Position numbers and translations under genes: made by a program
Assembly: GCA_025765615.1 (NCBI GenBank)
Contig: JAIVFJ010000014.1
Span: 412,501-476,500 of the forward strand
Reading direction: 5' to 3'
DNA length: 64,000 nt
Source of the DNA: Zopfochytrium polystomum
Lineage: Eukaryota; Chytridiomycota; Chytridiomycetes; Chytridiales; Chytridiaceae
Part shown: positions 7,392 through 45,138 of the stretch, in pieces
Layout: each line of letters starts with the position of its first letter
Position numbering within the stretch: the stretch's first letter is position 1
Notes under the pieces: model-generated
Database searches by the model: none
What the model was told of the DNA's origin: nothing
What the model saw: the letters and a program-made list of their open reading frames with translations, nothing else

Positions 7392-10300
7392 ATGTGGAAG
7401 GTGGTGGTGACGGCCGACCATCAACGAGGACGGCGACCGTTTTGGCGCGCAGCCTTCGTTGCTTATCTCGGCTTCGTCGCCGCAGCTGCTCGTCCAGCGG
7501 CCGCAGTTCCCACCGGCGGCCAGAACGTGCTCCTCAACGCGAGCTCCTTCGACCTCGTCGCCAACTCTTTCTCTGGCTCCATTTGGGTGCGTGGGAGGAG
7601 CAGGAGGAGGGAGGGGCCTCGAGGCTTGAAATTATTTTTAACCTTTCCGGGAAAAAAAAATAATCCCAAAATATAAAAAAAATAACCCCCAACCCGCCAA
7701 CACTCCTCAGATCAACAACATCGCGTACACAAAGATCGTCAATGTGGTCTACTCAAACCCAACGGCCACTTCATGGCCTATATCGAGCTACATTAATGCT
7801 TCATACTCGGCGGCTTCAACTGGTGGTTACGAGGTCTGGACTTTTTCCTCCCCGGGAACGACAAGCCTTGCCCCTGGAAGTCAGGTTGTAATTGATTATG
7901 GGCTCTAATATATGCGCTGCTAACGGGCCTACTGGGGGATTTCAGTTTTACTTGAAATACATTGTCAGCGGCTCAACGTATTACGACAATAACAACAGGT
8001 GCGTATGACCCACTCTTTTGGTTGCGTCCATTCTGACTCTACTGTGCGCAGCAAGAATTATGTGGTCTCTGGAATCTGGTCGTGGTCGCCTAACCCATCC
8101 GCCCCAACTGATTCGTCCGCAGTGAAGCTCAAAAATGTCACCCTTGCGCAGAACGGAACCTCCTCGTTGAATGGGACAATTTGGATTAACAACATTGCTC
8201 CGACGAAAACCGTTCAAGTTTGTTTCACGAATTCGACCTCAAGCACCACTTTGAGCTGTGCGTCAGCCTCATACGGTGTTGCTGCGTCTGGAAGCTACGA
8301 AACCTGGACTTTCTCGTTTTCAAACTCGGCACTTGCGGTCGGCAGCAAATTTTACATTTCGTACCAAGTTAGTGGCTCAACTTATCTCGATGGAACGTAC
8401 AATCTTGGCTCGACGGCTATTAGTGCGCTCACAACCAGCACCACATCTACCACGGCGGCTGCAACATCGCCGAGTACTTCCTCCTCCTCTGCTTCCGCAT
8501 CAGCCACTTCGACTTCATCGTCTGCGACTGCCGGTGCTGTAACGTCATACACTCCTCACCCGGAAGGCCCTTCGGTTTACAGCGCGCCTGCTCTCATGCA
8601 ATCGTACTCATATGATCCCGCCTCGAATACATTGTCTGGAACGGTGTACGTCCGCACGGCCGATTCCTCGGCCTCTGGCTACACATTGTACGTGTACTAC
8701 TCGAACTCATCCGGCATTTTCGAATCGTCAGCACCCTATCTTTCCGCGACCTATTCAACATCCTCATCTTTTAGCGGATACGACATCTGGTCATTCTCTG
8801 GAAACCCAATTCGTGGCGGGACCGGCATGCATATGTACATTCGCTCGGGAACATCCTCCAGCTACTCCTATTCCACGAACGGCGGTGATTGGTACCACTA
8901 CCGCGTTTTCCCGCAGAAAAGAGTGTTCGATTCTCCCTCGGCGTGGAAGGGCCGCGCGATTTATCAGCTTTTGACCGACAGGTTCGCCCGGCCACTGTCT
9001 GTGGGAAGTGGGAGTCTGTACTCAAACTGTACCGACACAACAACGTACTGCGGAGGAACATGGCAGGGCGTTATCGAACAACTTCAGTACATTGCGAATA
9101 TGGGATTCGACGCGATATGGATCTCGCCAATTGTGTCCAGTTGAGTGAACGTAGCCTCCATAAGTGATCCCAGGAGTGTTTGCTCACAAATGAATAATTC
9201 CGTTTAGACACCGCGACAGGCTATCATGGGTACTACGCGTATGAGTGAGTTCAATCATCGCTTTGCTTGCTGAATTTCAACTTAACGCTTCGTCAAGTCA
9301 CTCAAAGCTGAATGACAAATTTGGAACCTCCACCGACCTTCAAAACCTTCTTGCCGCAGCGCATAGTCTGAACGTGAGTAGCGGCATGGACGCTTCATGG
9401 CTCTCATACCTGTCCGTTTAGATTTCGGTCATGTATGACATTGTCGCAAATCACATGGGACCAACTGCGACCGGATCCATGAGCTACTACCCCTCGCCAC
9501 TCAACAAAGACTCAAACTATCACAGTCCTGTGTGCACAATCGACTACAACAAAACGCCCATTAACCAGACTGAATATGAAGTCTGCAGAATCAATTCTGT
9601 CAATCCGGACATCAACACTGAGGATCCTGAGACCATCAAATGGCTAACTGACAGTTACAAAAACCATTTCTCGAGCTACGGCCCAGATGGATTGCGCGTC
9701 GACACGTTCAAGCACGTGAATGTTACATTTTGGAAATCTTTTCTTGGAAACCTTAGCCTTTTCTCCATGGGTGAGGTCCTTGATGGAAAGTAAGTTTTGG
9801 GGCATTACACTCCATTCGAAAGCCGCCCTCTGAAGAGTGCAACAGTACCGCCTATGTCGCATCGTACCAGAAAGTGGCCAACTCAGTGCTGAACTATCCG
9901 CTGTACTACAACGTTATTCAGCGTAAGTCTCGGCCGGTGGCTTTCATCCTTGCTAAATACCTTGCAGCGGTTTTTGGATCGAAAAACAGTATGACACGCA
10001 TCACAGACCAGCTATCCAATAATAATCAGTTTGTGGACTCAACGGTCCTCGGTAACTTTGTTGATAACCACGACATCAACCGAATCCTGACGACAACGGG
10101 AGGTGGTTCGTAGCCAAAGGACATTTTGCATTCGAGCCATTTCCTGCTGTCAACTCACCACTGCCGCCCAACCCCAGACACTGCCCTTGCTCGAAACGCC
10201 CTTATCCTATCCCTCTTTACGGATGGTATTCCCATCGTCTACCAGGGTTTCGAGCAGGCCTACACAGACAGTTCCTCTACGCGGCTACCCATCTGGCCGA

Positions 10301-38327: not shown

Positions 38328-39388
38328 TCACAATCCCTCGTTCCGCTTTTCCTGGGCGGCCTGCTGCGCGCGGTCGGCCAGGCTCTTTGCGTCGCCTTCC
38401 GCGTTCTTTGCCCTTGCGTTGGACCCGTTTACGGAATCCGCGACGGACTGCGGCGCGCCGCCCTGCTGCACCAGCGCCTGCACCTGCTGGGCGATCTCCG
38501 CCACGACCGCGGCGGCGATGGCCGCCTGCACGGAGGCCGCCAGGGCCCTGAGCGACGCGGCGATTGCGGCAGCCGACGACGACGCCCCGATCGCCTCGCC
38601 CAGCCCCGCCTGCGCGACCGCCCTCTGCGCAACGGCGATGTCGGCGGCGGCAGCGGCGGCCGCCACTTGGCTGCTGCCGCCGGCGCCGTTCGAGCAGAGG
38701 CCGTTGGGGTACCTTGGTGCGTATAAAAAAAAAAAAGGAGAGTTAAAATTTGGCCGTTTTATGGAGAAAAAAAGGAAACAATGGCGCGAACCAAGTGTTG
38801 CACTGCCAGTCCAGCCAGTTGAGCTTGTCCTGGTACGAGACGCCCTGCAAGCCGGCGAGGCACGCGTTCTGGATCGAGTCGCAGGTGGCGGCGCCGGACG
38901 GGTTGCTGCTCGGGTAGTACGACGCGCACGACCAGTGCGACCAGTCGGACAGGTCCTGGCCCGACGGCAGGTACCCCTGGTTGAAGTAGCACGCGATCGA
39001 GTCGCACGTGCGGCCGAGTCCGCAGGGGTAGCTTCGGTTTTTTGGGGTTAAATAAGGTTCCCTTTAGGGGTTGCAAAAAGAGAACAACAACGACGACGAC
39101 AATAACAAAAACGCTATGATGCTCAACTAGATGTTGCACTGGTAGGTGCACCAGTCGACGTAGTCCTGCCACCATAGCGGTTTGCCCGCGGCGAACCAGG
39201 AAATGATCGAGTCGCACGTCTTGCCGGCGGACGCCGGCGTGGCCGGGTAGTACTGGGCGCACGACCACGCCAACCAGTCGTTGTAGTCGCCAAGGGTCGC
39301 GGCGTTGCCGGCCTGGAAGGACTGGGCGATGGTGTCGCAGGAGCGGGCCTAACGGGAGGTGGGTGGGTGGTTTGTGAGTGTTTGCGCG

Positions 39389-40111: not shown

Positions 40112-43100
40112 TCAAAGGTTCCCAAACGTCAGCACGTACCCCGACCGCGTGCCAACGCACACGCGCTCCGCGCTGCCGGCGCAGACCACCCGCCGAAACT
40201 CCCACGGCCGCCAAGGCACAGGCAGCCACGCAACCCTGCGGATCGCCCCGGTACCGTCGATGCTGACGATCCACCCGGCGGAGTCGACAAAAAAGAAGCG
40301 CGTCGACAGCGGGCGCGAGGAGGACGAGGACGAGGAGGAGGAGGAGGATGGCGATGAGGACGAGGAGGGCGCCGAGGCGGCAGACGGCTGGTGCTTGTCA
40401 AAGACGGCCTTCAGCAAGGTTGTGTTGCCGTCGCTTGGCGGCGGGCGCTGCTCTGCGCGCCACGAGTACAGCTCGAGGGCGGTGCAGTCGAAAAACACGA
40501 GCCGCGGGAGGGCGGCGGCGGGCGCGGCGGCGTCACCGGAGCGATGTTCTCCTGCGGCAGAAGATTGCAGCGGCGGCGGCACCCGCAGCGCGCCGTCAAA
40601 CCACAGGCGGTACACAAACGGCACCTTCACGAGGATCCGCCACGTGCACGCGCCGGACGCCGCGTCCCAGACCGTGACGCCGTCCTCGATCGACGACGCC
40701 GACGCGAGCAGGGCGCCGTCGCGGGAGTACGCGACCGCGAGGACGCTGTTGGTGTGGCCCGTGAGCACGTGGCGGCACGTTGGGGTCGTGCTGCTGCTGC
40801 TCCCCGCCGCGGAGGCATCGGCGGCGGCGGCGGGGACCAGCCACACGCGGACGGTCTTGTCGCGCGAGCCGGACGCGACATAAGTGCCGTCCGGCGAGAA
40901 GCACAGCGCGTCGATGCCCGACGCGTGGCCCTCCAGCACGGCGCGCCGCTCGCCCGACGCCACGGTCCAGACGCGGATCGTTTTGTCCGTGGATCCCGTC
41001 ACGAGGGTCCGGCCGTCGGGCGAAAAGCACACGGCGATGACGTCGCCGATGTGGTCGGCGAGCAGCGTGGACTCTGCACCGCCGTTGGCGACGTCCCAGA
41101 TCCGCGCGGTAAAGTCGTACGACCCCGACGCTACCGCTGTCTCGTCTGGCGATACGCACACGGCGCTCACCGCCGCTCGGTGCCGCTCGTTCGCTTCTGC
41201 GCCTCCGCCCTCCGCGACAAGGTCCGTGGCGTCGTACACCCGCAGCGTCTTGTCCCACGCGCCGGTGGCAAACGAGCTGCCGTCGGGCGCAAACACCACA
41301 GACGTGACCATTTCTGCGTGTCCGTCCAGAACCTGCAAGCACTGGCCCGTCGTCCAGTCCCAAACTCTGACGCTGGTGTCCTCCGCGCCTGACGCCAACA
41401 GGCGCATGTCGGGTGAGAAGCATAGGGAAGTGACCGTAAACCTGTGATCGGACATGGACCGTTTGAACGCGCCAGAGTGCGCGTCCCAGATCGAAATCTC
41501 CGAGCCAGCTGTCACAAGCCATCGGCCGTCGGGCGAAAAGACGACCTCGCGGACAGAGTAATCGTCCGCCACGATCTCAAGGAGGCATTCTCCGGTCGAG
41601 ACGGTCCACACTCGAACAGTTCCATCGTGTCCACCGGACGCGAGTTTCGTTCCATCAGGAGAAAACGATACTTTCATCACAGACTGGTTGTGTCCCTCCA
41701 GCGTTTTGATGGTCTCGCCCTTCGCGGCGTCCCACAATCGGATGGTTTTGTCCCTGGAACCAGTCGCAACGATAGCTCCGTCCGGCGAGAACACGGCAGT
41801 GTGAATCCCGAGCGTGTGTCCCTTCAACTCTAGCCGGTTCGCGCCTGTCGCAGGGTCCCACACTTTCGCCATCTGATCGTCGAACGACGCCGAGACAATG
41901 AGACCCTCGACAGAGTAATTGAGCGCAGTCACTTTTGTTGCGTGCGCAGGGATGGTCGTCACGACGCAGTCGGTCTCGACATCCAGAAAGGCGATCCGGC
42001 CATTGTCAAGCCCCGCTGCGACGTTGATTCCTGACGGCGACCACGACAGCGCCCTCACGCCGCTCCCCATGTCGACCGACGCTAGCAGCGCGGTCCAGTG
42101 CCGATCCACGGTGCCCGAGACGGTCGGCAAGCGAAACGGGATTTCGCGGCGGAGTGCATCATTGGAGTAAAAAGCCCGCCGGACAGTCGACTCGGTCGGG
42201 GAAAACGGCAAGGCGGACCGATACACTTGCAGAGCGTTGTAAGAAATCGCAGAGTAAAAGTACGGGACCAGCCGTTGCACATCGCGAAGCAGCTCCTTGG
42301 TGAACGGCGTGCAAGCCCGCGCCAGTGTGGGCGATCGCTCCAGCTCGCTGAGGCGCCCCAAGACCCGGCGGACGGCGGCAGACGTGTCCCGTATCTTGCC
42401 GAGGAGGGACATGACTTCGATCCACATGAGAAGCTTTTCGCTGCAAAATTGGTCCAGCAGCGTGAGGAGCGCCTCGCCTTGGTCCGACGAAGTGGACAGC
42501 GCAGCGTCGAGGTAAGCGTCCCAGAAGCGACACGCGTGCGACAGATCAGATGTTACTGCCTCATAGACGCGGCGCTGGAACTCTGGTGCAGCTGTCATAT
42601 CTGCACCCGGATTTGTTAGGCCAATCATATCCACTTTCAAAGCGAGCAGCATTTCCTCTAAACAGTGGCGGGCAAGAAGCTTTTCGTGCAGGGAGGTGTC
42701 AATGAAGAACCGCTTATCCGTCGCACGGAGCGGGTCCGACAGATAATCTTTCACGCTCTTGTGGAGGGTCGACACAAAGCCCTTGTCGCTGACCGTGACG
42801 AGGGTAACGGTTCCGCAACACAACGCGTCCCACAAGCGCATCGTCCACGCCTAGAAGTCGAGCGAGCGCCGTCAGCGACAGTGGCTCCTTTGCAACGCAA
42901 ACAGCGCCAATCACATTGATAAAATCGGCCGTAGAGGCGTTCGCGCTGTACGCGTCCTTCAACAGCAGTTCGAAAATGCTATCCATTCCTTCGCCTAGGC
43001 TCTGCGCAACTTCTTGCGCAATGTCAGCCGAATTTGAAGCGGTTCCGATTGTGCCGCCATTTGTTCCGGGGGCGTTGGCCAAGTCGACCTTGCGGTCAAT

Positions 43101-44930
43101 TTCGTCGCAGGCCAACCTCGTCCACACAAACACGCCGTTCGACTTGTGGGCGAGCGTGGCAGTGCACTCCACCAGGTCAAACTCTCGTTGCTCAAAATGT
43201 TTGTGGAGTCGGCTGCGTATAAAGACCCTGAGGTCAATGTCATTGTCTGCGCTGCTTGGGCTCAGGCGCTTCGTGTTGAGGCTGCGGAAGGACGCTGTGA
43301 TGTCGGGTTCCGGTCGCCCAGTCACAAAGACTTTGATGAAGGAGGGCAGGTGGCAAAAGTCGTTGCGCAAAAGAGACAATAGAGCCTGTCGGTCGGTGCT
43401 GTTGTACTCACCGCACTCGTCCAATGCATCAATGATGACTACAAGGTTTGGAGGACTCGCAACACTCCTCGCAACAATCTCGAGCCCTTGCTTTATGAGC
43501 ACATTGAACGTGTCGCTGATGGATTGCAGTATAGAAGTCTGGCCGCTCTTGCGACGATCCATGTCGTTGACCAATTCGGCCTCCAGATGGTCAGCAAATG
43601 GCCGGAATCGAAGCGCTAGGTCGTACGCGAGGGTCGCTAGGACTTTGGATGCCTTATTCTTTGCGCTGTCGTTATGACGGCAGAAGAAGATGGAGGCGAC
43701 GGACCAGCCGCTCGGGAGGTTCTCAGACACAAGCCACGCCATGATTGACTTTCCCACGCCAGCTTCTCCGTTCAGCCACAGAAACTTTGTCGACGAGTCG
43801 GCGACCCACGTTCGCACCTCCGTGACAAGCCACTGTCTAGTGCCAGAGACGTAAGCGCGACGGTACGCCGTCTTATCCTCTCCAAAGTCTACGGGTTGCA
43901 GCCACTCTGTCAGTGCGAGATTGGACGCAGGCTGTGCTTCCACGCGAGGGATTTCCACAGCAGCATCTGACTTTGTGCTGACCCCCAGCAGCTTGGAGAG
44001 CTGCTTCTTGATGGAAGCCACACCCTCAGCAAAGTCGTTGTCCTCAAGGGGCTCTTTGGACAGATCCACGTAGAGTTTGCCGGCGAGAATCAGCCACATC
44101 CAACTATCATCGTCCCTAGAACTGAGGGGAACGTTCTTCGGCACCAGGACAGGAAGTATCTTCTTGCTGCGCTGCGCTGCGTGCTGCAGCTCCAGTTTGC
44201 AGTTGCTGGATTTCTGTCAACAGAGAGCAGGAGCGGCCCGGGAAAAATGCGGTCAGAAGAATTGTGTCAAACGCGACTTCCGACGACTCTGCGCACCTCG
44301 TAAGCGTCGGACGCGAAGACCACAATCACCGAGCTCTTTGCGACGCCCGCCGCCATCGAGTCAAAAATGTTGCCCTCCATTTCCCTAAGATCCATCCAAA
44401 TCGAGAACTCGCCCTCAAGCGCCTGGTATAACCGCCGAACGAGCTCCTGGCTTCCCCACCTGTGCAAAGCAATTTTTTAATACGGCTTCCGGTTGCAATC
44501 CTCGCGTCTCACTGGTATGAAAACATGAGATCGTATGACTTTGGCCTGGTCATGGCCGATGATGGGGCGGCGGCAGCGATCGGTTGCATGTCGTACGCGG
44601 GTGGGGGCGTGAACGAGCGCCGCATCCCCGGCGGTCCCGCGGCCAAGTGGGGATCAAGGTAATCGGCGGCGGCGGCGGCCGATGGCGCAACGACGGAAGC
44701 TTCAGGTTTCTCCACGGCCGTCAGCTCGCCTGTCCATTCGCCCTTTGCGACCAGTCGGCGAAAGGTTCCGGCTGTGCGCGCCAGCGTGAGCTTGCGCGTT
44801 GGGAACTTTGGCAGGGAGTAGTGGAAGGTGAGGGAGGCTGCGGGAATGTCGCATCCCGACTCTGTGCGGAGCTAGGCGGGTAGTTATATTTTTGGTAAGA
44901 GCGATCGATCACTCTCGCCTCTCTCTCTCT

Positions 44931-44981
<51 letters not shown>

Positions 44982-45138
44982 GCTCACTCACCAGATCTTC
45001 GACGAAGGCGGGGACGTCCGACGGCGAGGCGGCCTCGAGGGCGGACAAGCTCAAGAACAGCTCGTACGTCTCGTCGCGGAAGTCGACAAAGATCTCGACT
45101 GTGTCGGCGGCGGCGGCGGCGGCGTCGGCCGGCGCCAT
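40112..45138 (-). CDS. TIR-NACHT-WD40 receptor (NLR-type STAND NTPase)
   Basis: Candidate intracellular sensor of non-self or stress. Exons 45138-44992, 44871-44513, 44459-44297 and 44213-40112, about 1,589 residues if one base is ignored. After a roughly 90-residue N-terminal domain I cannot name, a TIR domain spans residues about 160-290: KSYDLMFSYQ, SIWMDLREMEG, VIVVFASDAYE and SSNCKLELQHA, the last with the Glu expected for NAD hydrolysis. The NACHT follows: Walker A GEAGVGKS (about 372-379) and Walker B VVIIDALDEC (about 481-490). The HKSVKDYL motif lies in the linker. Eleven or more WD40 blades follow, several very alike (FSPDGxxxASGSRDKTxRVW). Around 42795-42825 the frame shifts by one next to a CCC, with uninterrupted coding on both sides. 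Confidence 0.85.
44890..44991. repeat. CT microsatellite in the first NLR intron
   Basis: A CT tract (about 44919-44976) fills most of a 120-nt intron of the TIR-NACHT-WD40 gene, just downstream of the donor. Confidence 0.8.

Follow-up and report, generated by a model that had tools for sequence, protein, structure and literature searches.

Within a 64,000-nucleotide stretch of DNA (the window) of Zopfochytrium polystomum, a chytrid fungus of the Chytridiales, the minus strand from 45138 to 40112 carries a TIR domain, a NACHT-type ATPase, a helical arm and WD40 blades behind an N-terminal domain. Judged by its sequence, the locus spreads a TIR-NACHT-WD40 protein over two reading frames, and this protein would probably act as an intracellular TIR-type NOD-like receptor (NLR), with the WD40 part sensing a ligand and the TIR domain then cleaving NAD+. 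The gene has the NACHT-type P-loop NTPase with Walker A and B motifs that marks signal transduction ATPases with numerous domains (STAND) and NLRs, and the fusion of an N-terminal TIR domain to the NTPase that marks TIR-type NLRs. In the assembly one frame change interrupts the window copy, which may or may not make the full-length protein.

The TIR region was checked by hidden Markov model (HMM), and the joined exons matched TIR_2 over the cut-off (Table 1); the middle exon alone gave 27.4 bits against a cut-off of 28. The SSNC-x2-E pattern of the preliminary description was found as described, with the Glu at residue 231, and HMMER aligned this Glu of SSNCKLE with that of CWDE in Cat1, a CRISPR-associated TIR protein (E 0.003), whose aligned Glu we take to be the catalytic residue. 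Cat1 was also the best match of the first 312 residues in the PDB search (0.003), followed by an ankyrin protein (0.67). By motif scan, the Glu was present in 29 of 32 other TIR-NACHT loci, and in 26 of the 30 strongest TIR_2 loci fetched. The window TIR is likely a NADase, a prediction against which it counts that Glu 231 is known as a sequence motif and not as an activity. An unlikely alternative is that the TIR is a scaffold and not an enzyme; activated receptors would then use TIR-TIR contact to recruit TIR-kinases encoded in this genome, and the kinase would signal, much as MyD88 couples Toll receptors to IRAK kinases. Kinase motifs (HNDLK-type, DFG) do lie nearby in 12 of the 30 strongest TIR_2 loci fetched, and all 5 loci tested score as kinase domains, but scaffold-only TIRs need not keep the Glu that the motif scans found so widely.

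The ATPase core was matched by NPHP3_N, and the classic NACHT model scored the window protein at 26.5 bits, just below its cut-off of 26.7; both Walker motifs are intact, as had been claimed. In the proposed mechanism, the WD40 part would keep the receptor inactive in the absence of a non-self or damage ligand; once one binds, the NACHT domain may swap ADP for ATP and oligomerise, as the intact Walker motifs and kinship with STAND ATPases suggest. Clustered TIRs would then build an active site around Glu 231, NAD+ would be broken down or a nucleotide signal made, and the infected thallus would stop growing or die. The N-terminal domain, if it is the ubiquitin-like/PB1 module that paralogues suggest, would promote head-to-tail receptor assembly or bind PB1 partners.

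Table 1. Coordinates of features of the receptor gene within the window
Feature	Position	Strand	Evidence or remark
Exon 1 (start codon, first half of N-terminal domain)	44992..45138	-	ATG at 45138, GT donor, phase 0
N-terminal domain (residues 12-105), interrupted by intron 1, with a proposed ubiquitin-like/PB1 fold	44704..45105	-	
Exon 2 (N-terminal domain second half, linker, TIR first strand)	44513..44871	-	flanking GT-AG introns, frame kept
TIR domain, residues 166-284, exons 2-4	44031..44523	-	TIR_2 E 2.5e-16 on joined exons, over cut-off
Exon 3 (TIR middle)	44297..44459	-	intron places common to paralogues
Exon 4, open part (TIR end, NACHT, winged-helix/arm region up to residue 690)	42813..44213	-	
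Glu 231 codon in SSNCKLE, candidate catalytic residue	44190..44192	-	
NACHT-type NTPase core, residues 347-523	43314..43844	-	NPHP3_N E 3.8e-28
Walker A, GEAGVGKS	43746..43769	-	
Walker B, VVIIDALDE	43416..43442	-	
Out-of-register junction of two frames	42803..42824	-	ankyrin-type paralogues: phase-0 intron of about 60-100 nt at same place
Second frame, ending in the stop codon at 40112 (helical arm at about residues 693-940 and WD40 region)	40112..42811	-	open 912-codon frame; WD40 HMM
11 recognisable WD40 blades	40607..42049	-	

The gene was modelled with four exons and three predicted GT-AG introns, and its TIR_2 and NPHP3_N matches both lie within the first 691 residues. The TIR-splitting introns, which follow FSYQ and DAYE, have counterparts at matching positions in TIR-NACHT paralogues, and chytrid relatives are predicted as single two-domain proteins, so the TIR exons belong with the NACHT domain and are not a separate gene. 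The preliminary description had placed TIR, NACHT and WD40 in one gene: all the domains are real, at the coordinates and on the strand it gave, but the reading frame is broken near 42,812.

There, between VGRVVLR and TVTLVTVSDKG, the NACHT and WD40 frames collide out of register, which weighs against an intact receptor; the WD40 repeats stand downstream of the NACHT domain in a shifted frame, whereas in relatives the two form one predicted protein. Frame-restoring intron candidates (GT-AG and GC-AG, at least 42 nt, within 42,700-42,950) were listed and judged by eye, and each was rejected for cutting into the conserved end of the NACHT domain or into TVTLVTVSDKG. The intron found at this site in ankyrin-type paralogues is GC-AG in 11 of the 13 shown and GT-AG in 2 (by eye); the gene on contig C120 probably has it, and the gene on contig C99, of another clade, runs through without one. 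Because the C99 gene lacks the intron and the window gene branches outside the intron-bearing group, gain in that group is at least as likely as loss in the window gene, and the explanation that the window gene had lost an intron was dropped.

Slightly below an even chance, in our estimate, is that the window copy is a recently disabled gene, with a real frame change, translation stopping soon past the NACHT domain and at most a sensor-less, truncated TIR-NACHT protein made. The colliding frames and the lack of a listed intron that spares the conserved residues agree with this, as does a genome search that returned a single locus at 100% identity and no second copy for comparison. Against it, both frames are otherwise open (912 codons downstream, 500 upstream), with coding-type third-position GC of 0.78 and 0.70, respectively. 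Ten pairs of similar loci were also compared, and in two of them most differences are gaps (11 gap openings against 2 mismatches over 2.4 kb in L008/L029, 5 against 0 over 4 kb in L043/L044), which points to indel errors in the assembly, while mismatches outnumber gap openings in the other eight. As the pairs are mixed in this way, the frame shift may be either an assembly indel or a real disabling change. At the contig level, near-identical stretches are shared by C47/C516, C50/C493, C165/C244, C115/C418 and C4/C524; the first two pairs show mainly gap differences, the last three more mismatches than gap openings, and we regard such pairs as haplotypes or duplicates with some indel errors. 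A TIR-NACHT-ankyrin paralogue (L042, 521-709 and 96-1040, reverse orientation) has its N-terminal domain over two frames, which again hints at indels or decay in the TIR-NACHT family.

Genome-wide, TIR_2 gave 85 matches and NPHP3_N 150 scored matches, and a NACHT domain lies 313-484 bp downstream on the same strand for 37 of the 85 TIR_2 matches, with two more loci at 2,162 bp; these TIR-NACHT counts include near-identical contig pairs. The claim that TIR N-termini are uncommon in described fungal NLRs holds for the literature, where the part of one source available to us calls them a 'small group' (PMC10197012), but not for the Z. polystomum genome. Among the 39 TIR-NACHT loci, ankyrin repeats occur within 8 kb in 29, a helical/WD40 side within 2.5 kb in six (the window, C99, both C120 copies, C72 and C32), and neither type in four. 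Downstream sequence was inspected for the ankyrin loci C57, C18, C46 and C2, and for C99, C120 and C72; C46 and C2 have a NACHT but do not belong to the 39, and show a TIR only by tblastn.

In the NACHT tree, the window and C120 genes, both with WD40, branch off early in the ankyrin group (99/96), though their exact place is less sure as both branches are long. Beside the ankyrin group stands a second group of NACHT genes, which includes C99 (98/97). When chytrid relatives were included, the window gene and a Nowakowskiella TIR-NACHT-WD40 protein were early branches of one TIR-NACHT clade (96/95), in which the Zopfochytrium and Entophlyctis ankyrin genes are nested, and the chytrid rows stood apart from four Dikarya rows (100/99). 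The simplest reading of these trees is that WD40 was the older sensor and ankyrin a later swap.

Other TIR arrangements also occur in this genome. In L003, L005, L009, L014 and L023 a TIR domain (1501 onward) is followed by a protein kinase domain; in L013, L020 and L008 it is followed by a STAND-type ATPase, matched by NB-ARC over cut-off in the first two and by DUF7779, with an nSTAND match below cut-off, in L008. Sel1 repeats accompany the TIR in L001 (1875-3182) and, by motif only, in L021, and L024/L025 (contig C24) have tandem TIR domains.

The WD40 HMM marked 10 stretches on the second frame, and 11 clear blades are followed by a degenerate tail, so that the two propellers of the preliminary description may or may not be present; alignment-free fold prediction of the region was unusable (mean predicted local distance difference test score 43.8). 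Several blades had been described as nearly alike, which was taken to favour repeat shuffling, but pairwise identity among the 11 averages 31% with a maximum of 50%: the blades are not nearly alike, and repeat shuffling in the window gene is not supported. The C99 paralogue (L070, 3141-4625, minus strand) has 9 blades that are 67-88% identical (mean 78%), with differences clustered at positions 15, 17, 34, 38, 39 and 41, a pattern that, on sequence, is as expected of homogenised recognition repeats. Such near-identical repeats in paralogues, also seen by eye in the ankyrin repeats of L063, are what would speak for a receptor of self/non-self (vegetative) recognition like HNWD of Podospora, with fast-evolving repeats as the recognition code. 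We consider this very improbable for the window gene, given its divergent blades, and no HET domain was matched in the window protein at E up to 1; nor is vegetative fusion in chytrids established by the literature used. HNWD (HET-NACHT-WD40) shares the effector-NACHT-WD40 order, from which the window gene differs in having TIR_2 in place of HET and blades that are not homogenised, without the near-identical WD40 repeats of HNWD. HET is described, in the part of the source available, as a remote TIR relative (PMC4986451).

The N-terminal domain had been described as belonging to no nameable family and as a possible extra effector or adaptor module. The first part stands for the window copy, which has no significant match of its own; an effector is less likely than an assembly module, and the domain is probably of the ubiquitin-like/PB1 type, an assignment that for the window copy draws on paralogues. 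The domain agrees with the pre-TIR domain of paralogues in where it lies, how long it is and where an intron splits it. The C99 N-terminal domain passes the PB1 profile (2.1e-6, 28 bits against 23.6), that of C120 falls just under the cut-off (2e-4), and a joint profile built from nine N-termini of the family, those of C99 and C120 among them, found the PB1 domain of PKC-zeta at E 0.002. The two PB1-type N-termini as a profile alone found MEKK3 PB1 at 0.05, the ankyrin-type profile alone found no PB1 structure, and the two sets did not match each other. In the model of an Obelidium relative (P0144), the stretch before the TIR is ordered strand-strand-helix-strand-strand-helix-strand. A genome-wide search gave 65 PB1 matches (E up to 5), 43 of them over cut-off; 37 of the 65 (26 of the 43) lie upstream of a same-strand NACHT domain, 36 of them at 1,141-1,388 bp, and no opposite-strand NACHT lies nearby. 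Those of the 37 loci that could be placed fall in the C99-type group. When one inferred intron was removed, the spliced TIR of C99 scored 2.6e-9; C90 shows part of this TIR as well.

Several results weigh against extending the PB1 assignment to the window copy. Its N-terminal domain matched no Pfam family, and no PB1 at E up to 10; it showed no significant similarity to family N-termini, the family profile failed to align with it, and no paralogue of it was found by sequence. Pairwise scores against L048 and one half of P0143 were reached by 6 of 500 shuffles, a weak signal, those against P0142 and P0144 by 44 and 46 of 500, and those against the other six tried by 195-433 of 500. The PB1 profile matched none of four ankyrin-type N-termini and none of those of P0139, P0143, P0144, P0146, P0147 and P0151, with a weak score for P0142 (0.0098), and the PB1-like stretch of the P0144 model has middling confidence (block means 53-79). 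Furthermore, the window and the ankyrin-type TIR-NACHT loci are absent from the 65 PB1 matches, and among the 37 PB1-NACHT loci only C99 has its own TIR_2 match.

TIR-NACHT kin were found in seven other genera by protein search with a paralogue query, the first protein search not having reached the chytrid relatives. P0147 (Nowakowskiella sp. JEL0407), P0143 (Blyttiomyces) and P0139 (Chytriomyces hyalinus) share with the window gene a pre-TIR stretch, TIR_2, NACHT and WD40, and fall in the same NACHT clade; they are 33-36% identical to it, with intact predicted frames, and are annotated merely as hypothetical. Plant TIR-NLRs (RPP1, RUN1, RPS4) have the same order of TIR, STAND ATPase and repeat sensor, and the predicted model of a relative matched the RPP1 core and the TIRs of RUN1 and RPS4; such full-model structure searches do not bear on the N-terminal domain. 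The plant receptors have an NB-ARC ATPase and a leucine-rich repeat sensor, where the window gene has NACHT and WD40 and an additional N-terminal domain.

In fungi, the likeness extends to Pezizomycotina NLRs with SEFIR-type, TIR-like N-termini, which also place a TIR clan domain on an NLR but are of another subfamily and lineage, and for which the available part of the source names no PB1 domain (PMC9815663). The same source, as far as available, reports TIR in NLRs of Chytridiomycota. Among sources likewise available in part, a 2010 survey of 49 fungal genomes confined NACHT to filamentous ascomycetes and gave no TIR (PF01582) (PMC2939053), a 2014 survey gave chytrids without NLR hits (PMC4986451), another gives numbers for Chytridiomycota species that start at one (PMC12258605), and HET and TIR in fungi have been reviewed (PMC12881547). 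Literature titles listed for PB1, TIR and NACHT topics included none on fungal PB1-TIR receptors, the one paper matching all three being, by its title, on a plant gene.

A broader reading, which we hold to be rather doubtful, is that chytrids have an old and large TIR-NLR system with a PB1-type polymerising domain, a NADase TIR, NACHT, exchangeable WD40 or ankyrin sensors and TIR-kinase signalling, of which the window gene would be an early branch keeping the ancestral WD40. The receptor reading favoured here would mean that plant-like TIR receptors exist in a fungal phylum that diverged early, proposes a likely PB1-TIR-NACHT layout for a previously unnamed domain, and makes the question of fungal NLR ligands testable in Z. 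polystomum. In the available part of a mycovirus survey, double-stranded RNA that came from screening Z. polystomum WB228 in vitro was readied for sequencing (PMC7482067); WB228 may or may not be the strain sequenced here.

Elsewhere in the window, a DPH5 gene adjoins the receptor gene, the two start codons being 577 bp apart, and an Rfam scan of the window gave no match at gathering scores. Neighbouring frames at 38743-39340 (minus strand) carry repeated Cys/Trp-rich units (TCDSI...W..W.C), and the one frame searched (38743-39063) had no Pfam match. On the plus strand, a pectinesterase match (1791-2450) and a CBM21-alpha-amylase match (7993-9141) were found, as in a fungus feeding on plant matter.

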